DNA from: a virus
DNA: 30,030 bases
IMG/VR virus record: IMGVR_UViG_3300026183_000027
Location: 1-30,030 of that record
Strand: one strand, 5' to 3'
Shown one piece after another: positions 5,448-29,368 of this stretch. The notes under the pieces are model-generated. The model did not search any database. It was given only the letters and a program-made list of their open reading frames with translations, and was not told the DNA's origin. Every line of letters starts with the position of its first letter. Position 1 is the first letter of the stretch. A program made the position numbers and the translations under genes.

Positions 5448-6314
5448 ATGGCAAATGTAACAACAACAACAGCTGCTAATTTTATTCCTGAAATGTGGAG
5501 AGATGCTATCCTTGACTATGCAGAAAGAAAATTTATCCTTCGTAATCAAGTATCTGACTTCTCATCTATGGTTTCAGGTGGTGGCGACATACTAAACATC
5601 CCAAAAGTTGCTGAAGAAACAGCTGCATCTAAAAGTGCAGACACAGCAGTAACTTATTCTGCTAACACAGATGGGGTAATTCAATTATCAATGGACCAAC
5701 ATCACTACGAAGCAAAAAGAATCGAGGACATCGTAAGAGTTCAAGAATCTGCTGACCTATTCAATGCTTATGCAAAGTCAATGGGTTATGCTTTAGCTAA
5801 GAAAGTAGAAAACTACTTAGCTGTTGATGTACTTCAATCAGCTACAGGTAACGATGTTACTTTAGCTGCTGATAACACCTTCACTACTGCTTTAATCAGA
5901 GAAGGCTTACAAAAAATGCTTGATGCAGGATTTGACTACACAGATGGCGAATCATTCTTATATGGTTCTCCTGCTGCTTATATGTCATTACTTTCTTTAG
6001 GTGACTTCACAGAAGCACAAAAAAGAGGCGATGATGCAAATCCATTAGTATCAGGTAATGTAATCCAGGCTTATGGTTTAAGCTGTTATCCTTCAGTAGA
6101 CTGGGATGACGATGGTGGTACTGGTGATGAAACAGCAACTATCTTTAACAGAAATTCTGTGTACTTTGCACAGCAATTAGCACCAAGAGTTCAGTCAGCA
6201 TATGACATTGACCACTTGGCAACTTCTGTAGTAGCTGATGTACTATTCGGTGCAGCATTATCACATGCAACATCTTCAACATCATTAGGTGTTGTAAACT
6301 TCGTAAATCCATAA
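5448..6314 (+). CDS. Major capsid protein
   Basis: A 288-aa protein in the capsid position, after the scaffold, with a strong AAGGAGATATAAAC ribosome site. An HK97-type fold is expected for this position but was not tested. Visible features are an N-terminal arm (MANVTTTTAANFIPEMWRD), a flexible loop-like segment near residues 45-80 (GGGDILNIPKVAEE), and a conserved-looking alpha/beta core. G+C is slightly higher and codons look more selected than in the fibre gene, as expected for an abundant protein. A hairpin at 6337-6368 follows its stop. Confidence 0.87.
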   Translation: MANVTTTTAANFIPEMWRDAILDYAERKFILRNQVSDFSSMVSGGGDILNIPKVAEETAASKSADTAVTYSANTDGVIQLSMDQHHYEAKRIEDIVRVQESADLFNAYAKSMGYALAKKVENYLAVDVLQSATGNDVTLAADNTFTTALIREGLQKMLDAGFDYTDGESFLYGSPAAYMSLLSLGDFTEAQKRGDDANPLVSGNVIQAYGLSCYPSVDWDDDGGTGDETATIFNRNSVYFAQQLAPRVQSAYDIDHLATSVVADVLFGAALSHATSSTSLGVVNFVNP

Positions 6315-6336
6315 TTGGACTAACGAAAATCGGTTA

Positions 6337-6368
6337 AATATGGGGCTAATTTCGGTTAGCCCTATATT
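6337..6368 (+). terminator. Hairpin after the capsid gene
   Basis: Bases 6337-6349 pair with 6356-6368 (13 pairs including one G-T) around a six-base loop, TTTCGG. There is no good T run after it, so it may be a weak terminator or a 3'-end stabiliser that raises capsid mRNA over the fibre genes downstream. Confidence 0.6.
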
Positions 6369-6399
6369 ACCATTAAATATTAATTTGAAGGGGATTTAG

Positions 6400-6624
6400 A
6401 TGCCATTATACGATTATAAATGCAGTTGTGGTAAACAATTTGAAACACTACAAAGTATGCATGATGATAAATTAGTGAAATGCAACCAAAGTATCCAAGA
6501 ATGTGATGGAAATGGAACTTTGACAAGACTTATAGGCAAACCTGCCATATTTTCTGATGACATCGGTAGAGGTCATAAACGAATGAAAGACAAAGATTTA
6601 TATAAGGAATTAGAAATTGAGTAG
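6400..6624 (+). CDS. FmdB-type zinc-ribbon protein
   Basis: A 74-aa protein beginning MPLYDYKCSCG, close to the MPxYEYxCxxCG start of FmdB-family putative regulatory zinc ribbons. Cysteines at 8, 10, 28 and 35 could bind one zinc ion, although the first pair is CxC where CxxC is usual. The LTRLIGKPAI segment also matches the family pattern. A leader with AAGGGGATTTAG precedes the ATG. It sits between capsid and fibre; its role there is not known. It could be a structural or regulatory accessory. Confidence 0.72.
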   Translation: MPLYDYKCSCGKQFETLQSMHDDKLVKCNQSIQECDGNGTLTRLIGKPAIFSDDIGRGHKRMKDKDLYKELEIE

Positions 6625-9600
6625 TAATACCAATATAGGAAATACTCCTGTAAATCAGGGCTATGTTCAATTAATCCACACAGGAGAAACTGGGGGAATA
6701 GATGGAACACTTCGTACTTTATACGATGGTGATGGAACTGCATCAGATTTACAGATTGCAAGTAATAAAGTTAAAATATCTACTCAATTATACATTGGTA
6801 GCAAAACTATTACTGAATATGTACAAGATGTGGTCGGTGATATGCTTGATACCAATGGTAGTCATACAAACATTACTGCTACCTATGACGATGCAGGTGA
6901 TGGGGCTATAGATTTAGTAGCTACTGGTGCTATATCAAGCATCATTGGTGGCACAGGAATAGATGCTACTGGTAGTGGAGATATTACTATAGCTATTGAT
7001 TCTACTGTTGCTACTTTAACAGGAACACAAACCTTATCTAATAAAACCTTAGCAAGTCCAACTTTTACAGGCACAGCAAATGGTGCTAATTTAACTCTTA
7101 CTGGCGATTTAACAGTTAGTGGAGATACTATATTTACTAATTCCAATACAGTATTAATTGGTGATGCGATTCTTACTTTGAATGCAGATGAAACAGGAAG
7201 TCCAACAGCAAATGCAGGGTTTGAAGTAGAACGAGGAACTTCTGCAAATAAAACTTTTATATGGAACGAAACAGATGATAAATGGACTATCGGAAGTGAA
7301 ACCTTTGTAGCAAGTACAGTAGAAGCAAACCTAACTGGTAATGTAACAGGGAATGTAACTGGTAGTGCAAGTCTTAATCTTTTAATATCTAACAACTTAT
7401 CAGACTTGGCAAGTGCATCAACTGCAAGAAGTAATTTAGGTGTAGATGCAGCAGGTACAGACAACTCAACTGATGTTACTTTAGCAGGTAGTTTAGATTA
7501 TATCACATTAAGTGGTCAAGAGATTACAAGAAATGCTATAGATTTAACTACTGATGTTACTGGTGTTTTACCTTCTGCTAATTTAGATGCAGATACTGCA
7601 CATTTATCAGGTACACAAACATTTAGTGGTGCTAAAACTTTTTCAAGCACTATCACAGGAAACCTCTCAGGAAATGTAACTGGAGATGTAACTGGTAATG
7701 CTGATACAGCTACTGCCTTAGCAACTGCAGGAACACTTACTTTTACTGGCGATGTAGTAGGTGGAACAACACCGACCTATACAAGTGGTGGAGATTTAAG
7801 TATTGCTATGGCTATACAACCAAATAGTGTTGCATTAGGAACAGATACTACTGGTAATTATGTTGGAACAATTACAGCAGGTTCAGGTGTTTCTACTTCA
7901 GGTGCAAGTACAGGAGAAGGTATAGCACACAACCTAAGCATTGATGCATCACAAACAGTAATTACTTCTATATACAATTCTGCTTTACAAATTGGTAGTG
8001 CTACAGATGAACAAAGAATAGATTTTGGTACTACAGATGAAATACGATTAGGAAGTGCTACACAAACATCAGTTAAGATTAAAACAGACCCATTAGGTTC
8101 TGCACAAGATGAAGTAATTATTGGAGATGGCACAGCAGATGTAGACTTCGTTGTAGATGGTTCAAGTGGTAGCACTATATTTAAAGTAGATGCAGGAACA
8201 GGCAATACTGCAGTTACAGGCGATTTAAGTATTTCAGGAAGTTTCAATCCTGCTACAATAACTGCTTCAACATCAGTTAGAACTCCTTTAATAGAATTTA
8301 CAGATGGAGATGATGCAATTACGATTGAAAATGGTGGAGGAATGACTTTTGCTAAAGGATTTACTGTAACATCAGGGGCTTCTTCTTTTGGTGCAAATGT
8401 AGATATAAAAAATACAGGTGGCACAATATTACAATTAAATACATCAAGCACAGATGTTGACATAAATGGACTTTTAGGAAGAATTAATTTTTCAGCACCT
8501 GACGAATTTGCAGGTAGCGATTCAAACCTATTAGCTGCTTCTATTGTAGCAAAAGCAACTGCAGATTTTACATCAACATCTAATAAAACAGATATGATAT
8601 TTGAATTAGGAGTATCAGAAACTGCATCAGAAAAATTTAGAATAGTAAGTGATGGTAAAATTAAGATTGGTGGTTCATACACTTTACCTTCATCAGATGG
8701 TAGTGCTAATCAAATATTAAAAACCAATGGTAGTGGAACAGTATCTTTTGCAGATGAAAGTACAGGAATATCTTTTAATGGCTCTACTGCTAATGGATTA
8801 TTGACTTATGGTAATAGTACCACAGCAGATGTAGAATCTAATCTTACTTTTGATGGAACAAATTTAGATTTACCTGATAGTAAAAAAATCAGATTAGGAA
8901 CTTCTCAAGATTTAGAAATCTATCACGATGGAACTAATAGTGTAATTAATAACACTCAAACTGGTGCTTTACAAATTTATAATAATGTTGATAATGGTAT
9001 GGTTGAGTTATTAACAGACAATGGAAGTGGTGGAACACAAGTATTTTTAAGAGCAGATGGTGCTAACAATATGGTTAGAATGCCAGTAGATGGAGTAAAA
9101 TTTACATTAGGCGATGCAAGTGATTTACAATTATATCACGATGGAACAGATAGCATAATATTAAATCAAACTGGTGATTTAATTTTAAGAAATGATGAAG
9201 CAGACCAAGATATTATATTTCAATCTGATGATGGTGCTGGTGGAGTAACACCTTACATAACATTAGATGGTAGTGCTACAGAAGTAGATGTTCATAAAAA
9301 TATGAGATTTGACGATAGTAAACTTGCAGTATTCGGTAATGGTGGAGATATGTATATATACCACGATGGAACTAATAACCATATTCGGACAGATGCTGGA
9401 GATATGATACTTCATCAAAACACAGACGATAAAGATATTATATTTAAATGCGATAATGGTAGTGGTGGTGTTACTCCTTACCTAACCTTAGATGGTGGCA
9501 CAGGACACTTAAACTTAACACCACCTAATAATGTCGGTATAGGAACTACATCACCTACAGAAAAATTAGAAATAAGTGGTGGTAAATTACTAGTATCAGG

Positions 9601-10930
9601 TGGTCAAATAAGAAGTGGTTCATACTTAGAAGGTTTTCCAAGTTTTAGTTTTGCTAATGATAATGATACAGGAATGTTTAGTGATACTGCAAATCAATTA
9701 GAATTTTCTACTGGTGGTAGTTCAAGATTAACTATAGACTCATCAGGTAATGTCGGTATAGGAACTACATCACCACAAAGTAAACTTCATACTGTACAAA
9801 CTTTAGATACAGTTTCTAATACTCTTGCTAATGGTAATTATGGTTTAGTTGTTGCAGGAGATGTTGCAGGAGTTGCAACAGATACAGTAGGAATACACTT
9901 AGCTGCTAAATCAGTACCAGGCACACCAACAAGAGGAGCATCAATTCTTGCAGAGGTTCAATCAACAAATAATAATCACGATTTAATTTTTGCTACTTCA
10001 GCAGCAGTTTCAGCACCTGCAGAAAGAATGAGAATAGACTCATCAGGAAATGTCGGTATAGGAACTCAATCACCTGCAAGTAAATTACACATTAGAAACG
10101 ATTCAGCAGCAGACCAATTAAGATTAGGTAGAGTAGATGATGATTCTTACTTATCTGTTGGTGCAGGTGCAACATATGCAGTTTATAATATGGTTACTGG
10201 TGGAACAATAGCACATCAATTCCAAGAAGATGGCGATGCAAAGATGACAATACAAACTAATGGTAATGTCGGTATAGGAACTTCATCGCCAAGTGCTAAG
10301 TTAGAAATATCTAATGATGTAGGTCATGCACAAAATACAGTTCTTGTTATTAAATCAGATGACCCTAATGGTGACCAAGGTGCAAGTTCTTCTGCTGACA
10401 TAGACTTTCATATATGGGATAGTAATACAAGATTATCTACACCACAAGCAAGAATAGGTATTAGAGGAGATGGTACTGCAAGTCAAAATAGCGAAGCAGG
10501 TGGAACTTTATCATTTTATACTAATGTCGCAAGTTATAGTTCACCATCTCTTACCGAAGCATTAAGAATTGACCCAAGTCAAGATGCACACTTTGACCAA
10601 GATGTTATTGCATTTTCTACTACACCATCAGATATAAGATTAAAAAAGAATTTTACAAAAATAGAAAATGGATTAGAGGTAGTCAATAAATTAGAAGGAC
10701 ATACTTTTAATTGGAAAAAGGGTGGAGATAGATTAAGTGCAGGATTTAAAGCACAAGAAGTAGAAAAGATTTTACCACATTTAGTTGATGAGAAAAAACT
10801 TCCATTAAAAGCAGATGATGATAAAGAATACAAAATTTTACGATATGAGGAAATGATACCTTATTTAGTAGAGGCAATAAAAGAACAACAGAAACAAATA
10901 AACCAATTAGAGGAGAAGTTAAATGGCTAA
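6617..10930 (+). CDS. Tail fibre with S74 self-cleaving chaperone
   Basis: A 1437-aa predicted receptor-binding fibre. The N-terminal part has fibre-type repeats (GTQTLSNKTLASPTFTG near 135). The middle has LEIYHDGTNS/LQLYHDGTDS/MYIYHDGTNN repeats, and the C-terminal third has four NVGIGTxSP repeats. The last 100 residues form a peptidase S74 intramolecular chaperone with SDIRLKKNF at 1338; cleavage is expected before S1338 after trimerisation. Start is TTG at 6617, eight bases after AAGGA, inside the preceding gene. A full-length fibre gene between capsid and connector is an unusual place for a siphovirus. Fibre identity is firm; the receptor is unknown. Confidence 0.93.
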   Translation: MSSNTNIGNTPVNQGYVQLIHTGETGGIDGTLRTLYDGDGTASDLQIASNKVKISTQLYIGSKTITEYVQDVVGDMLDTNGSHTNITATYDDAGDGAIDLVATGAISSIIGGTGIDATGSGDITIAIDSTVATLTGTQTLSNKTLASPTFTGTANGANLTLTGDLTVSGDTIFTNSNTVLIGDAILTLNADETGSPTANAGFEVERGTSANKTFIWNETDDKWTIGSETFVASTVEANLTGNVTGNVTGSASLNLLISNNLSDLASASTARSNLGVDAAGTDNSTDVTLAGSLDYITLSGQEITRNAIDLTTDVTGVLPSANLDADTAHLSGTQTFSGAKTFSSTITGNLSGNVTGDVTGNADTATALATAGTLTFTGDVVGGTTPTYTSGGDLSIAMAIQPNSVALGTDTTGNYVGTITAGSGVSTSGASTGEGIAHNLSIDASQTVITSIYNSALQIGSATDEQRIDFGTTDEIRLGSATQTSVKIKTDPLGSAQDEVIIGDGTADVDFVVDGSSGSTIFKVDAGTGNTAVTGDLSISGSFNPATITASTSVRTPLIEFTDGDDAITIENGGGMTFAKGFTVTSGASSFGANVDIKNTGGTILQLNTSSTDVDINGLLGRINFSAPDEFAGSDSNLLAASIVAKATADFTSTSNKTDMIFELGVSETASEKFRIVSDGKIKIGGSYTLPSSDGSANQILKTNGSGTVSFADESTGISFNGSTANGLLTYGNSTTADVESNLTFDGTNLDLPDSKKIRLGTSQDLEIYHDGTNSVINNTQTGALQIYNNVDNGMVELLTDNGSGGTQVFLRADGANNMVRMPVDGVKFTLGDASDLQLYHDGTDSIILNQTGDLILRNDEADQDIIFQSDDGAGGVTPYITLDGSATEVDVHKNMRFDDSKLAVFGNGGDMYIYHDGTNNHIRTDAGDMILHQNTDDKDIIFKCDNGSGGVTPYLTLDGGTGHLNLTPPNNVGIGTTSPTEKLEISGGKLLVSGGQIRSGSYLEGFPSFSFANDNDTGMFSDTANQLEFSTGGSSRLTIDSSGNVGIGTTSPQSKLHTVQTLDTVSNTLANGNYGLVVAGDVAGVATDTVGIHLAAKSVPGTPTRGASILAEVQSTNNNHDLIFATSAAVSAPAERMRIDSSGNVGIGTQSPASKLHIRNDSAADQLRLGRVDDDSYLSVGAGATYAVYNMVTGGTIAHQFQEDGDAKMTIQTNGNVGIGTSSPSAKLEISNDVGHAQNTVLVIKSDDPNGDQGASSSADIDFHIWDSNTRLSTPQARIGIRGDGTASQNSEAGGTLSFYTNVASYSSPSLTEALRIDPSQDAHFDQDVIAFSTTPSDIRLKKNFTKIENGLEVVNKLEGHTFNWKKGGDRLSAGFKAQEVEKILPHLVDEKKLPLKADDDKEYKILRYEEMIPYLVEAIKEQQKQINQLEEKLNG
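9530..10282 (+). repeat. Four copies of an 18-base in-gene repeat
   Basis: AATGTCGGTATAGGAACT occurs at 9530, 9749, 10049 and 10265 inside the fibre gene and encodes NVGIGT. Copies two and three also share the preceding ATAGACTCATCAGG. The DNA identity exceeds what the protein repeat alone needs, suggesting recent duplication or recombination between fibre modules. Confidence 0.88.
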
Positions 10931-12001: not shown

Positions 12002-12365
12002 ATTAAATGTAGTAGCAGGAATCATTGATAAAGTTGCTGATAAGATAGACGAGTTTACACTTGATAAAGCAGAAAAAGCACAACTTATACAAGAGATTAA
12101 CAAAGCACAAATTGAAGTCAATAAAGTTGAAGCGAATAGCAACAGCTTATTTGTTTCAGGTTGGCGACCTTTTGTTGGTTGGACTTGTGGAATAGCTTTA
12201 TGTTATCATTTCGTCTTACAGCCATTCTTAACATTCTTATTATTTGCCTTTGGATACCCAATAACCTTACCCACTTTCGATATGGGAACATTAACAACTG
12301 TATTGATGGGTATGTTGGGACTTGGTGGATTGAGAAGTTACGAGAAGGTCAAGAAGTCAGCATGA
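11994..12365 (+). CDS. Holin, 3-TM type
   Basis: Predicted inner-membrane holin that times lysis and releases the endolysin. The 123-aa protein has a cytoplasmic helical N-terminus (about 1-52), then GWRPFVGWTCGIALCYHF (57-74), typical of the 3TM holin family. A second hydrophobic stretch (FLTFLLFAFGYPITLP) and a third (LTTVLMGMLGLGGL) follow, then a basic tail. The frame is open further upstream through a Lys-rich stretch; the ATG at 11994 gives the family's usual MPKL-type start. Its stop overlaps the endolysin ATG (ATGA), a normal holin-lysin arrangement. Confidence 0.87.
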   Translation: MPKLNVVAGIIDKVADKIDEFTLDKAEKAQLIQEINKAQIEVNKVEANSNSLFVSGWRPFVGWTCGIALCYHFVLQPFLTFLLFAFGYPITLPTFDMGTLTTVLMGMLGLGGLRSYEKVKKSA

Positions 12366-12838
12366 CGACCTTTGAACAGATTATCGATGGTGTCCTGGAA
12401 CATGAAGGGGGCTATGTGAATGACCCCTATGATAAAGGTGGTGAAACCAAGTTTGGTATTGCTAAACGATGGTATCCTGATTTAGATATTAAGAATCTCA
12501 CTAAAAGTGATGCTATAAATATCTATTACAATGAATATTGGAAGCCAAGTAAAGCAGATTTCTTACCGAATGACTTGAAAGCCACCTATTTCGATATGTG
12601 TGTAAACATGGGACAAAGACAAGCTGTAAAAATACTACAACAAGCCATTAATAGTAGAAAAATGAAGAAGATTGAGGAAGATGGAGTTATCGGAGAAATA
12701 ACCATAGGTAGTGCAGGGAGAATCTCAAAGAAGCGATTACAAGCCTATCGCTGCTTATTCTATGGTAGATTAGTATCCGAAGAACCTGACCAACAACGAT
12801 TCTATTATGGGTGGTTTAAAAGGGCAACTACTATATGA
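12362..12838 (+). CDS. Endolysin, GH108 muramidase
   Basis: Predicted N-acetylmuramidase that cuts the glycan strands of peptidoglycan at lysis. The 158-aa protein shows the GH108 signature HEGGYVNDPYDKGGETKFGI at 14-33, with E15 as expected catalytic acid. It ends RFYYGWFKR, the usual C-terminal pattern of the family. There is no signal peptide, so it depends on the holin to reach the wall. The start is taken at the ATGA overlap with the holin stop; the frame is open further upstream but that part lies inside the holin gene. The stop overlaps the next gene start. Confidence 0.93.
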   Translation: MTTFEQIIDGVLEHEGGYVNDPYDKGGETKFGIAKRWYPDLDIKNLTKSDAINIYYNEYWKPSKADFLPNDLKATYFDMCVNMGQRQAVKILQQAINSRKMKKIEEDGVIGEITIGSAGRISKKRLQAYRCLFYGRLVSEEPDQQRFYYGWFKRATTI

Positions 12839-13602
12839 AAAAAATTAAAAGCACAGGAATCATATTTGGCGATATGCATTTTCCTTTGCATGATGAAAAA
12901 GCATTTAGCTGTGCTTTAAAGGTAGTTGAAAAAGTAAAACCTGATGTATTTATTAACTTAGGCGATTTTGCAGAAGGGGAGTATGTATCACATTGGAGAT
13001 GGCAACGAAGAAGGCGACCACCATTGGAATACCAACTTCCCTTAATTGATAAAGAAGCAGATGAAGTCAATTACCACATGGATAGAATTGATAAAGCACT
13101 TGATAAAGTAGGGTGTAAAAAGAAATATTTGGCTATGGGAAACCACGATGCCTGGTATAATCAATTTGTAGATGAGAATCCATATTTGGAGCAATATAAG
13201 CCTGAGAATCTATTTAAGATAGAAGAAAGGGGTTATGAGTGGTATCCTTATGGAGAGTTATTTAAGCTGGAAAATTCTAAGCTATATGCTTATCATGGAG
13301 GACATTATAGTTCAGTCAGTCATAGTAGGCAAACTGTAATGCACTTAGGGTGTAATGTCATTTATGGGCATACTCACGATTGCCAACGAAGTGTAATGCA
13401 ACACATTTCAGGCATACATATAGCACAAAGTATGGGGTGCTTGTGTAAGATGAAGAAAGACTTTTTAAAAGGTAGAAAGGTAAATTGGACTCACAATGTA
13501 GGGATTGTTGATTTCTTTACAGATGGGTGGTTTAACTTGATTACCTTAGACATACATAATGGAATGACAACTTGGAACAATAAAATTATAAAGGGAAACT
13601 AA
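12835..13602 (+). CDS. Calcineurin-like metallophosphoesterase
   Basis: A 255-aa two-metal phosphoesterase. All main motifs are present: GDMH (12-15), GD (43-44), GNHD (102-105), AYHGGH (152-157) and GHTHD (178-182). These would bind two metal ions and hydrolyse a phosphoester; the substrate (nucleic acid, nucleotide or protein phosphate) cannot be read from sequence. It begins within the endolysin stop (ATGA) and sits in the late operon between lysis and connector genes. Such enzymes are common phage accessory genes. The RWQRRRR stretch at 55-61 may contact a polyanion. Confidence 0.9.
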   Translation: MKKIKSTGIIFGDMHFPLHDEKAFSCALKVVEKVKPDVFINLGDFAEGEYVSHWRWQRRRRPPLEYQLPLIDKEADEVNYHMDRIDKALDKVGCKKKYLAMGNHDAWYNQFVDENPYLEQYKPENLFKIEERGYEWYPYGELFKLENSKLYAYHGGHYSSVSHSRQTVMHLGCNVIYGHTHDCQRSVMQHISGIHIAQSMGCLCKMKKDFLKGRKVNWTHNVGIVDFFTDGWFNLITLDIHNGMTTWNNKIIKGN

Positions 13603-15676: not shown

Positions 15677-15876
15677 TGAAATATAAACATATTAAAGGAC
15701 TTCAACTTCAAAAACCAAGTTATTTAGAAACACCTAATCAAAAGATTAGAGAATTGTTAGAAGGTAAAGAAGTGGAGTTAAATGAAGAAAATGTGGCTGA
15801 ATTTGAATCGTTAGGTGTTCAAGTCAAGCCAGTAGAAAACAAACCTAAAAAGAAAAAAGTTAAAAAAGAGGAGTAA
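15676..15876 (+). CDS. Small protein with Lys-rich tail
   Basis: A 66-aa protein starting on the preceding stop (TAATG). The first 50 residues are a plain acidic-basic mix; the last 12 are nearly all Lys/Glu (KPKKKKVKKEE). It lies directly before the tail-tube gene. Unknown function; possibly a tail assembly accessory. Confidence 0.7.
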   Translation: MKYKHIKGLQLQKPSYLETPNQKIRELLEGKEVELNEENVAEFESLGVQVKPVENKPKKKKVKKEE

Positions 15877-15882
15877 TAACAA

Positions 15883-16989
15883 ATGGCTATAAGTTCCAAA
15901 GTCTATGGTAAAAGCCAATATGCCATAGGTATTAAGCAAAAAAATGCAACTGCTTTTGAAACAGCAGGTGCTACTGACACAGCATATCAATTACTACCTG
16001 TAATTAATGTATCTGCCCCAGTCCTCAATCTTGTAGAATCAGGGGAGATACGAAGCAACAATGCAGGTATGATTGAAACTGACTTTGACCAGTTTAGAAC
16101 AAGAAAAGGTGGATTTGTAACACTTGATTTTGAAGTTCCTGCAGAAAGAGCAGGACTATCAAGATTGTTGGCTAATGTATTACAAGACCATACAGAAAGT
16201 GGTAGTTATATTCACACAGTAGAATCATCATCAAGTAATGCTTTATCAAGACCTGATTTTACAGGAAGTTCAACAGCAGGTATCCCAAGTATTTTTGATA
16301 TTGGGTTATATGGACCTGCAGCAGGAGAAGATAAAATCATCACAAGTGCTACTTTACAATCATTGACAATGAATTTTGATATGACTGATGGTAGATTATT
16401 ATTGAATGGTACTTTCTATTCAGGTTTTGCAAGTTCAACAGGATTTCTTGTAGGACAAACATTATCTGCTAATAGTGGAGAACCAACATTAATGAGTGCT
16501 TCACCAACACAAATTGAATCATATTTTGATACAAAACAATTTGATGTCAATAGTGTAGCAACTGATGCGATTATTACAGCAGTATCATTTACTTTTGAAA
16601 ACAATGTTGCAAGAGTAGGTAGAGATGCTAATGGCGATGCAGAAGCTTATGCTTTTGGTGTCCCATCAGTAAACATCACAGGAGAGATTTCTTTCATGTA
16701 TGATGGAAACTACAATGATGGTGCTGACAATGTATTACAGGACTTCTTAAATGGAACTCCTGCTACATTAACACTACAACAAGGTGATGGTACAGTATCT
16801 ACTGCAGGTGAAATGAATATTACTGCAGAAGTATATTCAACTGCTGTCAATTATGATTTAAATGCAGACACAGGTGCTATAATTACAATTCCATTTAAAG
16901 TTATTCAACCTACTACAACAGGTGGAGTACACAATGGAACAGCATTTAAGTTTGAGTTCATGGATGGTATAAGTAACACAAGTTGGTAA
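15883..16989 (+). CDS. Major tail tube protein
   Basis: A 368-aa, beta-rich Ser/Thr/Gly/Asn protein with low Lys, typical of siphovirus tail tubes. It precedes the two tail-assembly-chaperone frames and the tape measure, which is the standard order. It would stack as hexameric rings around the tape measure. The C-terminal part (from about 225, AVSFTFENNVARVGRD) looks like a tube-domain beta sandwich. The ribosome site is GGAGTAATAAC, 8 bases before ATG. Confidence 0.8.
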   Translation: MAISSKVYGKSQYAIGIKQKNATAFETAGATDTAYQLLPVINVSAPVLNLVESGEIRSNNAGMIETDFDQFRTRKGGFVTLDFEVPAERAGLSRLLANVLQDHTESGSYIHTVESSSSNALSRPDFTGSSTAGIPSIFDIGLYGPAAGEDKIITSATLQSLTMNFDMTDGRLLLNGTFYSGFASSTGFLVGQTLSANSGEPTLMSASPTQIESYFDTKQFDVNSVATDAIITAVSFTFENNVARVGRDANGDAEAYAFGVPSVNITGEISFMYDGNYNDGADNVLQDFLNGTPATLTLQQGDGTVSTAGEMNITAEVYSTAVNYDLNADTGAIITIPFKVIQPTTTGGVHNGTAFKFEFMDGISNTSW

Positions 16990-17004
16990 ACGAAGGAGTA
17001 ACAC

Positions 17005-17277
17005 ATGAAGGTTAAAATGTTCGATAAAGAGTGGGAAGTGAAGAATCCTACTTACAAAGAAAAACGAGAACTACAAAAAATGAGAATGATGGCTTTAGAT
17101 TCTACTGGTAAAGTAGATACCGAAAAGTTTTATGATTGTCTTGAATTTGTAGAAAAGATAAGTGGCTTATCAGAAAGTGATTATGTTGCTAAAGATAAGC
17201 CCTTAACAATGGGTGAGGTAGATGCTTTGCTTTCGAAATGTCTAAGTGAATTTTTAGATGTTTCAAAAAAAGGCTAA
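17005..17277 (+). CDS. Tail assembly chaperone, upstream frame (gpG-like)
   Basis: A 90-aa helical protein between tail tube and tape measure, the place of lambda gpG. It should bind the tape measure and recruit tube subunits. The segment NPTYKEKRELQKMRMMALDS is of the type seen in such chaperones. Its last codons run over seven consecutive A (17265-17271), a -1 slippery heptamer A AAA AAA in frame, followed by a stable stem. Shifted ribosomes would enter the next frame and make a 225-aa G-GT-like fusion. The ribosome site GAAGGAG lies 8 bases before the ATG. Confidence 0.85.
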   Translation: MKVKMFDKEWEVKNPTYKEKRELQKMRMMALDSTGKVDTEKFYDCLEFVEKISGLSESDYVAKDKPLTMGEVDALLSKCLSEFLDVSKKG

Positions 17278-17334
17278 TGGCTTTGTCGTCGTATGTGTGG
17301 TTTAGCCACTATGGTTATCCACACTTCGACAAAG
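17265..17334 (+). promoter_or_regulatory. Programmed -1 frameshift signal
   Basis: The in-frame heptamer A AAA AAA (17265-17271) is followed by a 9-base spacer and a long stem. Bases 17281-17288 pair with 17327-17334 (8 perfect pairs), 17295-17300 with 17319-17324 (6 pairs), and 17303-17308 with 17312-17317 (6 pairs, one G-T, three-base loop). A -1 slip enters the downstream frame without a stop. This is the arrangement used for tail-assembly-chaperone G/GT production in many long-tailed phages. Confidence 0.8.
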
Positions 17335-17681
17335 AGTTTCCTTATAAAAGGCAAAGTCCAATCACTAATAAAGTAAAGACATATAAGGATAAAGAAGATG
17401 TATTATTGGAAATTGATAGAGTGTTTGACAAGTTCAAAGATTCTAAATTTTCTATGGGTAGAAACCTATATTTTATATTACCTCTTTTTTGTAATCCAAA
17501 ATGTCTTTACCAGGATTGGATAGGGGAAACCATTAAAGAATATAAGATGAGTAAGAATCTTAATATTCCGATAGCAAGAAGCTTAGATGAAGCAGATGCA
17601 TTTATTGTAGATAATTTTTTAATTATAGATAACGAACTAAACTCCATAAGAGAGTATGAGGTAGAAAAGAATGGCAGATAA
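17277..17681 (+). CDS. Tail assembly chaperone, downstream frame (gpT-like)
   Basis: A 134-aa frame in the -1 register relative to the previous gene, starting ATG at the TAATG junction. It can be made as the C-terminal part of a frameshift fusion (entered at 17271), and possibly also from its own ATG by stop-start coupling. The sequence has a Trp/Tyr-rich beginning (SYVWFSHYGYPHFDKEFPYK) and a helical C-terminal half. Lambda gpT, the analogue, recruits tube protein. The overlap with the tape-measure start supports its role in tail assembly. Confidence 0.75.
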   Translation: MALSSYVWFSHYGYPHFDKEFPYKRQSPITNKVKTYKDKEDVLLEIDRVFDKFKDSKFSMGRNLYFILPLFCNPKCLYQDWIGETIKEYKMSKNLNIPIARSLDEADAFIVDNFLIIDNELNSIREYEVEKNGR

Positions 17682-19266
17682 AAAAATAAGATTATTAGTT
17701 CAAGCCGAAGTTAAAAAAGCTGTTCAAGCACTTAACAAAGTAGAAAAAGAACAAAAAGATATAAAGAAGCAAAATGATGGATTAAAGAAAAGTTTTGCTA
17801 CTATGGGTGGTGCAATAGCTGCAGCATTTAGTATACAGGCAATAGCAAGATTTACTCAAGAATCGATTAAACTGGGTTCTCAGACAATATCGCTTACACG
17901 AAGTTTTACAAATCTTGGAAAAGGCATTGGATTAAATGAACAGTCTTTGCAAAAATTTAGAAAAGCTACTGATGGTACTGTATCAGATGTTGATTTAATG
18001 ATTCAAGCAAATAATGCTATGTTGCTTGGTGTTGTACAAAACGAAGAAGAATTTTCTGAATTAATTGATTCGGCACAAAGACTTGCTAAGGCAGTTGGTA
18101 AAGATACTTTATTTGGTATTGAAAGTTTAACAACTGGTATCGGTCGTCAATCAAGACTTATGTTAGACAATCTTGGTATTATTGTAAAAGCAGAAGATGC
18201 TTATAAAGCGATGGCACAAGCTACTGGTAAATCAGTTGCAGCATTAACTGATTTAGAAAGAAAACAAGCATTTATTACTGCTACTATGGAATCAGTAAGA
18301 AGTAAAGTTGCTAATCTTGGACAAGAACAATTAGATGCTACTGATGCTACATTAAAATTAACATCAGCATATAAAAATTTACAAGGAACTATTGGAAAAG
18401 AATTACAAGATGAAGTAGAAGCTACTGCAGGATTATTTGCAAAACTTTTATCAACTACCGATTCATTAATTCAAAAAGTTGGATTATTTAATTTTATTAC
18501 AGGCAATATGGCATTTGGATTAGCACAGGTTAATACAGAAGCAAAAAAAGCAGCAGAAGAAGGAGTGGATGATTTTATTGATAAATTTCAAAGAATCCCT
18601 GAAACAGACCCAATGCAACAAGCATCATCACAAGCAGAATCCTTTGGATTAATACAAGGTAATTATCAAGCACATAATGATGCTATGGCAGCTATAGATG
18701 AAAATGCTATGAATTTTAGAATGGGTGGTTTAGAAAATGAGTATTTTCGTAGACAAGCATTTAATAAACAAGTTGAGCAAGATATGAAAGAACATAGAAA
18801 AGCTGCAAAAGATGCACACGAAGAAAAGATGGCACAAAATCTTGAAGCTGCAATCTTACAAGGACAATCTGCAAAACAAGCTGGTGTATCAGTAATCAAA
18901 GCTGAAATTGCAAAATCAACTGCATCATTAATTACAAAAATTATGCAAGGTGTTCCATTTCCATTAAATTTGGCTTTAGCAGCAGGGGCAGGTGGAATGA
19001 TTGGTAAAGTAACAGATTCTTTATTTTCCTCTTTTGCAACAGGTGGTAGTTTTGTAACTAAAGGCAGAACAACCTTACCTATTGGAAATGGAGTAGTAGT
19101 AGGAGATAATGCTTCAGGAATGGAACGAATTGATGTAACACCATTACCAAGTCCTACAAGTAATGGAAATAACATCACAATAAACATATCTGCACCATTG
19201 GTAGATGAAACAGTAGTAGACCATATTATACCAGCTATTAGGAGAGCAGAAAAATTAAACTTATGA
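17671..19266 (+). CDS. Tape measure protein
   Basis: A 531-aa protein that would set tail length and be ejected with DNA. The N-terminal 45 residues form a coiled coil (VKKAVQALNKVEKEQKDIKK). Next come a small-residue hydrophobic segment (GGAIAAAFSIQAIARF), a long helical middle, a second hydrophobic segment (PLNLALAAGAGGMIG, about 430-445), and a C-terminal GVVVGDNASGMERIDVTPL motif typical of phage tape measures. It is short for a siphovirus, which predicts a short tail. The ATG overlaps the chaperone stop; its own stop overlaps the next gene. Confidence 0.87.
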   Translation: MADKKIRLLVQAEVKKAVQALNKVEKEQKDIKKQNDGLKKSFATMGGAIAAAFSIQAIARFTQESIKLGSQTISLTRSFTNLGKGIGLNEQSLQKFRKATDGTVSDVDLMIQANNAMLLGVVQNEEEFSELIDSAQRLAKAVGKDTLFGIESLTTGIGRQSRLMLDNLGIIVKAEDAYKAMAQATGKSVAALTDLERKQAFITATMESVRSKVANLGQEQLDATDATLKLTSAYKNLQGTIGKELQDEVEATAGLFAKLLSTTDSLIQKVGLFNFITGNMAFGLAQVNTEAKKAAEEGVDDFIDKFQRIPETDPMQQASSQAESFGLIQGNYQAHNDAMAAIDENAMNFRMGGLENEYFRRQAFNKQVEQDMKEHRKAAKDAHEEKMAQNLEAAILQGQSAKQAGVSVIKAEIAKSTASLITKIMQGVPFPLNLALAAGAGGMIGKVTDSLFSSFATGGSFVTKGRTTLPIGNGVVVGDNASGMERIDVTPLPSPTSNGNNITINISAPLVDETVVDHIIPAIRRAEKLNL

Positions 19267-19382
19267 GTAATGTAACAAAATCAACTGCTTTTGCATACAT
19301 ACCTAAAAAACTATTTGGTATGAAAAAGAAAAGCATAAAACAAAAACTAAAAAAACCAAAACTTAAATTGAGGAGATATTAA
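19263..19382 (+). CDS. Thirty-nine-residue basic peptide
   Basis: ATG at 19263 overlaps the tape-measure stop (ATGA). It encodes MSNVTKSTAFAYIPKKLFGM followed by a Lys-rich end (PKLKLRRY). The AGGAG ribosome site of the next gene is built into its last codons. About 40 per cent of residues are Lys/Arg. This is another very small basic gene of the tail region; no family is recognised. Confidence 0.6.
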   Translation: MSNVTKSTAFAYIPKKLFGMKKKSIKQKLKKPKLKLRRY

Positions 19383-19383
19383 A

Positions 19384-19680
19384 GTGGAAATAGGAAAAGG
19401 CACAAAATTAACTTTTAGTATTGAAACACTTATCAGTATTAGTGTAACAATATTTATGGTGGTCGGATTGTGGTTTAATTTACAAGCTGACATTGAAGAA
19501 GCAAAACAATTACCTGAACCACCAATCAGTAGAACAGAATATGATTTAAAAGACCAAATGATTAGAAATTCTATTTTAAATACAGAAGAAAAAGTAGAAA
19601 AATTAGAAGATAAAGTAGATGACATTAAAGAGGATACAAGAAGTATTAATGAAACCCTACTAAACATGAATAACAATTAG
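19384..19680 (+). CDS. Single-TM coiled-coil protein
   Basis: A 98-aa protein from a GTG start, eight bases after AGGAG. Residues 13-32 are hydrophobic (ETLISISVTIFMVVGLWFNL), followed by a polar linker with two prolines and a long acidic coiled coil (about 55-95). The topology resembles inner-membrane spanins and other TM/coiled-coil phage proteins, and no spanin was found in the lysis cassette. However, its location in the tail block and lack of a partner lipoprotein make spanin only a possibility. Confidence 0.7.
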   Translation: MEIGKGTKLTFSIETLISISVTIFMVVGLWFNLQADIEEAKQLPEPPISRTEYDLKDQMIRNSILNTEEKVEKLEDKVDDIKEDTRSINETLLNMNNN

Positions 19681-25230: not shown

Positions 25231-25235
25231 AAACT

Positions 25236-25311
25236 GGGGCAGCTACTTCTTATTCCTTTGTTTAATTAACATATTACAATCGAATAGTAGCTGTCCCTTT
25301 CTCCTGAAAGG
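25236..25311 (+). promoter_or_regulatory. Structured leader with inverted repeat and covered ribosome site
   Basis: GGGGCAGCTACT (25236-25247) pairs with AGTAGCTGTCCC (25286-25297), 12 pairs with one G-T, around a 38-base loop. The loop holds, on the minus strand, GTTAATTAAACAAAGGA (25270-25254), a further copy of the shared leader motif preceded by TAATAT. Next, CCTTTC (25296-25301) pairs with GAAAGG (25306-25311) around TCCT and covers the ribosome site of the gene at 25317. The two stems share bases 25296-25297, so they compete at their junction. Confidence 0.58.
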
Positions 25312-25316
25312 ATATT

Positions 25317-25679
25317 ATGAAATTTAATAGTGATTTTAAGCATGATTTAGAATTAGGTGAAATGGCAGAAACAGATTTTCATTTAATGCTATCTGAAAAA
25401 AAGATTGAAGTAAAATATGATAGAAAAACAAAAGAAACTGGTAATGTGTATATAGAGTTTGAATCCAGGGATAAACCATCAGGGATTAAAACTACACAAG
25501 CAGATTATTGGACTTATTATATAGATGATGATTTTACCATAACAATTAGTACAGAAAAATTAAAAGATAAAATGAAAAACTTATTTGAAACAAAAAAAGC
25601 AAAAATAATTTCAGGTGGAGATAATAATACTTCAAAGGGATTATTGATAAGGGTACAAGATTTAGTATGCCTAAGTTAA
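25317..25679 (+). CDS. PD-(D/E)xK-like phage protein
   Basis: A 120-aa early protein with the pattern EVKYDRKTKETGNVYIEFES followed by KPSGIKTTQADYW. This E-x-K / TGN-x-x-IE / PSGIxTTxADYW arrangement is seen in small phage proteins of the PD-(D/E)xK nuclease-like group. A resolvase or endonuclease activity is plausible but not shown. Its ribosome site GAAAGGA lies within a hairpin (25296-25311), suggesting controlled translation. The 3' end overlaps the NinG-like gene by 13 bases. Confidence 0.68.
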   Translation: MKFNSDFKHDLELGEMAETDFHLMLSEKKIEVKYDRKTKETGNVYIEFESRDKPSGIKTTQADYWTYYIDDDFTITISTEKLKDKMKNLFETKKAKIISGGDNNTSKGLLIRVQDLVCLS

Positions 25680-28704: not shown

Positions 28705-29003
28705 AAAACTCAATAGACAATCAAGCAAAAGGGTACCAAGACCTAATAGATGAGGTAGAAAAAGAACAAGCAAAGATATTAAAAGAGCTAAAATATGTTA
28801 TTACTGGTATACAAGGGGGAAGGTCATTATCTGACCAAGAATATCAATGCTTTATTGAACGAGCATTAGAAAGAAAGAAATTTGATGATATAGCTTATAA
28901 CATGAGAATATCAGAAAGTTCAGCAAAAACCTATTATAATCGAGCCATAAAAAAGCTATCGAAAGAAGCCACTTTGGTAAAATATAAGCTTCGTAGAAAA
29001 TGA
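28701..29003 (+). CDS. Sigma-region-4-like / phage late regulator protein
   Basis: A 100-aa protein with an N-terminal coiled coil and a C-terminal helix-turn-helix (FDDIAYNMRISESSAKTYYN then RAIKKLS). It resembles sigma-70 region 4 and phage ArpU/RinA-type late transcription regulators. It could activate the packaging/structural operon, which has no obvious housekeeping promoter. Start is uncertain: ATG 28701 overlaps the 28585 frame stop (ATGA), whereas ATG 28554 gives a 149-aa form whose first 49 residues come from a GC-richer stretch. The shorter form contains the whole recognisable domain. Confidence 0.7.
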   Translation: MKNSIDNQAKGYQDLIDEVEKEQAKILKELKYVITGIQGGRSLSDQEYQCFIERALERKKFDDIAYNMRISESSAKTYYNRAIKKLSKEATLVKYKLRRK

Positions 29004-29368
29004 CAGACGACTCTCCAGGAAGATGTGGATTAGATAGTAGGGTATATCAATCTCCGAAAGATAAAAGAAAATTTATAACAGTATATGGAGATAATGATAA
29101 ATATCTTTTATATGAAGAATATATAAAAAGAAAAAAAAGAAAAAAAAAATATAACAGAAGTGAGGGAAATAAAGATGGTAGGCGATATTATATTGTCTGG
29201 GCAAGTGGAAAAATATCAAATTATTTTTTTACCTTAAATCAAGCAAAGTATATAGCACAAAAAAATAGTAAAAACAAAAACTTAGGCAATCCTACAATAT
29301 TTGAAGAAACAAAAGATGAAAACGATTGGATAATTACCTATGAACAAGAATTGCCCCACTATGAATAA
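29000..29368 (+). CDS. Hypothetical basic protein
   Basis: A 122-aa protein starting on the previous stop (ATGA). It has a Lys/Arg-rich middle (EEYIKRKKRKKKYNRSEG), followed by a Tyr- and Asn-rich region (RYYIVWASGKISNYFF) and an acidic end. It has no recognised domain. The basic stretch may contact DNA or RNA. Confidence 0.7.
   Translation: MTDDSPGRCGLDSRVYQSPKDKRKFITVYGDNDKYLLYEEYIKRKKRKKKYNRSEGNKDGRRYYIVWASGKISNYFFTLNQAKYIAQKNSKNKNLGNPTIFEETKDENDWIITYEQELPHYE

Follow-up and report, generated by a model that had tools for sequence, protein, structure and literature searches.

A predicted signal for programmed −1 ribosomal frameshifting in a gene pair of the tail-assembly-chaperone type from uncultivated marine phages

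Layout of the G/T junction

In the window, i.e., the whole stretch of 30,030 nucleotides that was analysed, a short open reading frame (G) runs through a stretch of adenines shortly before its stop codon and is followed by a second frame (T) in the −1 register. This locus raises the question of how T is translated: by ribosomes that slip back by one base on the adenines, by ribosomes that terminate and restart at a TAATG overlap, or by both. The features of the junction (17005–17681) are as follows:

17005–17277, plus strand: G frame, zero-frame product of 90 aa (candidate short chaperone), with homologues in all loci
17265–17271, plus strand: slippery heptamer A AAA AAA in the zero frame, kept in relatives as A AAA AAA or C CCA AAA
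17272–17280, plus strand: 9-nt spacer including the G stop codon TAA (17275–17277), read from the sequence
17275–17279, plus strand: TAATG stop/start overlap, a possible non-conserved restart site, read from the sequence
17281–17334, plus strand: predicted stimulatory stem of 8+6+6 bp, based on fold, conservation and recoding
17281–17288/17327–17334, plus strand: outer helix of the stem, 8 bp
17295–17300/17319–17324, plus strand: inner helix of the stem, 6 bp, the universal core
17303–17308/17312–17317, plus strand: further helix of the stem, 6 bp
17271–17681, plus strand: T frame in −1, 136 codons past the slip and open to its stop, from frame reading
From ATG 17277, plus strand: 134-aa ORF in the T frame, from the ORF list

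The 3′ end of the G ORF reads ...GTT TCA AAA AAA GGC TAA. The sequence-only reading had described an in-frame A AAA AAA heptamer, a 9-base spacer, a stem of 8, 6 and 6 pairs and a −1 slip at 17271 uniting the 90-aa and 134-aa frames. The heptamer (17265–17271) and the spacer (17272–17280) proved exact, the coordinates and pair counts of the stem were right, and the −1 frame stays open past 17271, giving a predicted GT fusion of 89 + 136 = 225 aa with no stop between the two parts.

Position of the heptamer and strength of the downstream fold

The window is AT-rich (GC content of 33%), and A7 runs are not enriched in it (33 found, 41 expected). Among the 61 in-frame XXXYYYZ heptamers of the listed ORFs, the site at 17265 is followed by the 70 nt with the most stable fold, lies 6 nt from the ORF end and is the only A7 site adjoining its stop. 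The A7 run is therefore ordinary, and what is unusual is the combination of heptamer, fold and position.

Folding of the junction, which had been proposed as a check on the stem, recovered all helices within an MFE fold of −28.1 kcal/mol (z −5.13), and none of 200 dinucleotide shuffles was as good. When the T-frame codons were replaced synonymously, the mean of the recoded sequences was −9.0 as compared to −24.4 for the window stem, and none of 1000 recodings was as stable. Since synonymous recoding abolishes the fold, the stem is not a by-product of the T protein sequence.

Conservation of the heptamer and of the frame relation

Relatives of the locus were found by protein-based scans of viral contigs and were picked by similarity of G or T, not by the heptamer. 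The sample comprised 291 loci with a complete junction, in which the identity of G ranged from 35 to 100%. This number includes overlapping fetches of single contigs, so the 55 distinct junctions are the count to use. Two loci containing G (L223 and L243) are situated at contig ends and lie outside the junction set.

A canonical −1 heptamer was found at the same codon pair in all 55 distinct junctions (all 291 loci), as A AAA AAA in 53 of them and as C CCA AAA in two, and T was in −1 relative to G throughout (55/55 distinct junctions, 291 loci). The distance from the slip site to the stop was 3–6 nt in the window and its relatives, and a downstream stem was present in every locus of the comparative set. 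The locus thus combines a zero-frame X XXY YYZ heptamer within the overlap, a predicted structure 9 nt further on (within the expected 5–10 nt) and a conserved relation of site and frame, as expected for −1 frameshifting. The sequence-only reading had named loss of the heptamer and the stem in relatives keeping both frames as evidence that would speak against it; no heptamer loss occurred in the 291 loci.

In L150 (3499–3505) and its relatives, A AAA AAA is naturally swapped for C CCA AAA whereas the remaining cassette is kept. A proline codon takes the place of the first lysine codon in this clade, and the heptamer is still of the slippery type. The swap is hard to explain otherwise, which argues that tandem −1 slippage is what selection keeps.

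These comparisons also bear on RNA polymerase slippage on A7, which needs a homopolymer (PMC5009743) and would produce mRNAs one base longer or shorter that encode GT. Most loci do contain an A7 or A8 homopolymer, as this explanation would have it, but the L150 clade, with C CCA AAA, keeps the two-frame layout and the stem without a long homopolymer, so that a homopolymer run is not maintained in all homologues. Moreover, the A-run sits exactly in the register of tandem codons, and the stem is located 3′ of the run, whereas a stimulating nascent hairpin must lie 5′ of it (PMC5009743). Slippage of the polymerase is hence very improbable. Since the frame break falls at a homopolymer, one might suspect that the two frames are really one, split by a sequencing error or by decay of a fused gene; however, the same break appears at a conserved position, with differing heptamers, in all 291 loci, which come from many independent metagenomes. 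So many independent records rule out an error, and the probability of this explanation is practically nil.

Maintenance of the stem across clades

The other half of the comparison, the stem, gave an equally uniform result: a significant stem was found in all 43 distinct 80-mers, each of which was more stable than its own synonymous recodings (mean z −5.6, weakest −2.9). The core at 31–36/55–60 (GUGUGG/CCACAC, 6 bp) was paired in 100% of cells. Its codons are near-frozen (Val GTG in 46/46, His CAC in 45/46 and Pro CCA in 43/46), whereas proline codons elsewhere in T are free to vary, the other invariant prolines using several codons. The synonymous rate was lower in the stem than in the rest of T, a difference that was not significant (p = 0.12).

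Outside the core the architecture varies. The clade of the window has a separate 8-bp outer helix beyond an asymmetric internal loop; in distant clades the core is extended almost continuously, with an outer stem built in a different register. Covariation, which had been put forward as a further check, answered in part: the distant clade contains three compensatory pairs (9 cells as compared to 3.6 in shuffles), whereas within the clade of the window the sequences were too similar for the analysis to be informative. The earlier description of the stem as unusually long and composite likewise needs qualification. The stem stands out against shuffles beyond the lambda and P2 sites, in a comparison limited to these sites, but only the clade of the window has the composite 8+6+6 geometry, other clades having a more continuous stem.

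The TAATG overlap and possible restart of ribosomes

The sequence-only reading had suggested that restart at TAATG may operate besides frameshifting; as an equal second route it was not supported. The junction reads TAATG in 15 of the 55 distinct junctions and TAGTG (GTG) in 7, whereas the remaining 33 have no ATG, GTG or TTG among the first eight codons of T; a start codon at the stop is therefore not kept in homologues, as stop-start coupling would demand. TAATG is limited to the clade of the window, and the GTG version occurs in another clade. Across relatives, Met, Ile or Val occupies T residue 3, i.e., the position of the ATG. Such conservative exchange among hydrophobic residues is what would be expected inside a fusion protein, and T residues 1–5 (RLMAL, RLIGL, RIVGL and similar) are conserved as protein, including those upstream of the ATG. 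The sole Shine-Dalgarno (SD)-like motif, AAGG, ends 3 nt 5′ of the ATG, whereas most genes of the window have better-spaced SD-like motifs. Given this lack of conservation, the Met/Ile/Val residue and the poor SD spacing, restart is at most a clade-specific extra.

Were coupling the only mechanism, ribosomes that terminate at TAA 17275 would reinitiate at ATG 17277, yielding G and a separate 134-aa T, with the A-run and the stem being incidental. The overlap is indeed present and kept across the close clade of the window, and many other gene borders of the window have TAATG-type junctions. Nevertheless, the junctions lacking a start codon still keep heptamer, frame and stem, the protein is conserved upstream of the ATG and has a hydrophobic Met, Ile or Val at the ATG position itself, and a stable stem begins right past the poorly spaced ATG, all of which make coupling alone highly unlikely. 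Coupling alone, polymerase slippage and sequencing error were considered and rejected on the grounds set out here.

A combination of both routes in the clade of the window, with frameshifting producing GT and restart at ATG 17277 producing additional free T, is unlikely as well, although to a lesser degree. TAATG is intact in 15/15 distinct junctions of the main group of the close clade, and frameshifting and coupling can coexist in other genes, as described by Antonov and colleagues (PMC3711429), but the overlap is not kept beyond this clade and the SD spacing is poor. Under this combination, a single RNA element would set a three-way G : GT : T balance in the clade of the window, and sister clades with ATA in place of the ATG would make G and GT only, which we regard as a rather doubtful arrangement. 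Moreover, the lambda system is not known to require free T, which counts against the use of both routes.

Gene order and candidate protein identities

The G/T pair is located between two ORFs with weak similarity to tail proteins:

15883–16989, plus strand: 368-aa ORF directly upstream, candidate major tail protein (weak PHROGs match to phrog_10528 ‘major tail protein’, E 0.0012)
17671–19266, plus strand: 531-aa candidate tape-measure protein, overlapping the end of T (weak tblastn matches)

The tblastn matches of the downstream ORF were to annotated tail tape measure proteins, with E values down to 3e-5. The position between a major tail protein and a tape measure, as suggested by these weak matches, is the location expected for a tail-assembly-chaperone pair. 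Searches with tblastn in cultured phages gave no match for the 368-aa ORF and no useful match for T, a 443-aa ORF and a 785-aa ORF.

The AF2 model of G (pLDDT 92) consists of a beta hairpin and three helices, and T is mostly helical. Several of the top BFVD matches to the G fold are named tail assembly chaperone, with weak E values of 0.2–1.3. Neither the profile search nor the fold search returned a PDB match for G, and neither G nor T matched a family in PHROGs or Pfam. Chaperone pairs are known to diverge widely, and a family match is not required of them. With no family and no PDB fold match, the chaperone name draws on gene order and on the weak resemblance in fold: layout and mechanism support it well, homology weakly. 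Finally, no relative was found in GTDB genome contigs, Rfam gave no match, and a promoter and terminator scan of 15800–19400 revealed no excess over shuffles.

Comparison with known frameshifting systems

Low-level −1 frameshifting between G and T is widely conserved in long-tailed phages (PMC5009743), and a frameshifting of 6–7% was measured for HK97-like chaperone genes (PMC3711429). A close parallel is lambda G/GT (G_GGA_AAG), which is likewise located between the major tail protein and the tape measure and consists of a short frame followed by a −1 frame; towards its end the first frame has a canonical X XXY YYZ heptamer, and the T end overlaps the start of the tape-measure gene (G/T/H layout). 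In contrast to lambda, to which no sequence-family similarity was detectable, the phages of the window group use A AAA AAA or C CCA AAA, and their slip site lies 3–6 nt before the stop whereas that of lambda is further upstream. The downstream fold of lambda reached z −2.6 as compared to −4.6 for the window in the same crude test, and the window stem is conserved in its clade. The E/E′ pair of P2 (T_TTT_TTG) shares the logic of gene order (E/E′/T) and the fusion design, but has a different heptamer, and its downstream fold was not significant in the same crude test (z +1.2). The HK97 gp13-type chaperone is also a two-frame chaperone with a −1 fusion that adjoins the tape measure; however, there was no sequence match, and a scan of the annotated gp13 region found no X XXY YYZ heptamer.

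The dnaX-type A_AAA_AAG cassette of E. coli (PMC5009743) resembles the window in its homopolymeric lysine codons followed by a stem stimulator, but the window has A_AAA_AAA and, as judged by eye, lacks an evident Shine-Dalgarno stimulator upstream. In E. coli, A_AAA_AAA is reported to slip much less than A_AAA_AAG (PMC5009743), a point against the frameshift reading. This low slipperiness may be why a strong stem was kept.

Proposed mechanism and significance

The heptamer, the stem, their conservation and the gene order support the earlier proposal of programmed −1 frameshifting in a tail-assembly-chaperone-type pair, and we consider the junction to be a signal for programmed −1 ribosomal frameshifting like that of lambda G/GT, with a probability of about 0.93. 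From the site, the frames, the stem, the conservation and the gene order, all observed, we infer the slipping itself, its rate and what the proteins do. Most ribosomes would terminate at TAA 17275 and release the 90-aa G. A minority, held by the stem at 17281–17334 with two tRNA-Lys on A AAA AAA, would slip back by one base, read AGG CTA ATG... and produce the 225-aa GT fusion. If lambda is a guide, G and GT may coat the product of the tape-measure gene that follows, with the T part recruiting the tail-tube protein.

The underlying principle is well known and is found here in an undescribed group of marine phages. The locus adds a G/GT pair, missed by the family libraries used, in uncultivated phages from many metagenomes. 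Its distinct points are the site 3–6 nt from the stop, the strong stem and the natural variants of heptamer and stem. In these variants C CCA AAA replaces A AAA AAA as the slippery site and the outer stem takes another register, with function apparently retained, a natural series which is useful for testing the requirements of a bacterial frameshift stimulator.

Other features of the window

Three places of the window have a 70-nt fold as stable as the frameshift stem. One of them (6332–6372) is a strong hairpin of approximately 14 pairs shortly 3′ of the major head protein ORF (5448–6314) and is a candidate terminator or RNA-processing site. A long stem at 25235–25300 (GGGGCAGCTACT / AGTAGCTGTCCC, approximately 12 pairs with a long inner loop) occupies the gap before the ORF at 25317; it had no Rfam match and could be a regulatory RNA or a terminator.

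A tail-fibre-like protein of 1437 aa (6617–10930), carrying an S74 self-cleaving chaperone domain at its C terminus, has its gene between head and tail genes and not after the tape measure. A calcineurin-like metallophosphoesterase ORF (12835–13602) adjoins an endolysin-like ORF (12161–12838) in the structural-gene half. In the region 29000–29368, several A-runs of A8 to A10 are clustered around 29131–29149 within an ORF.
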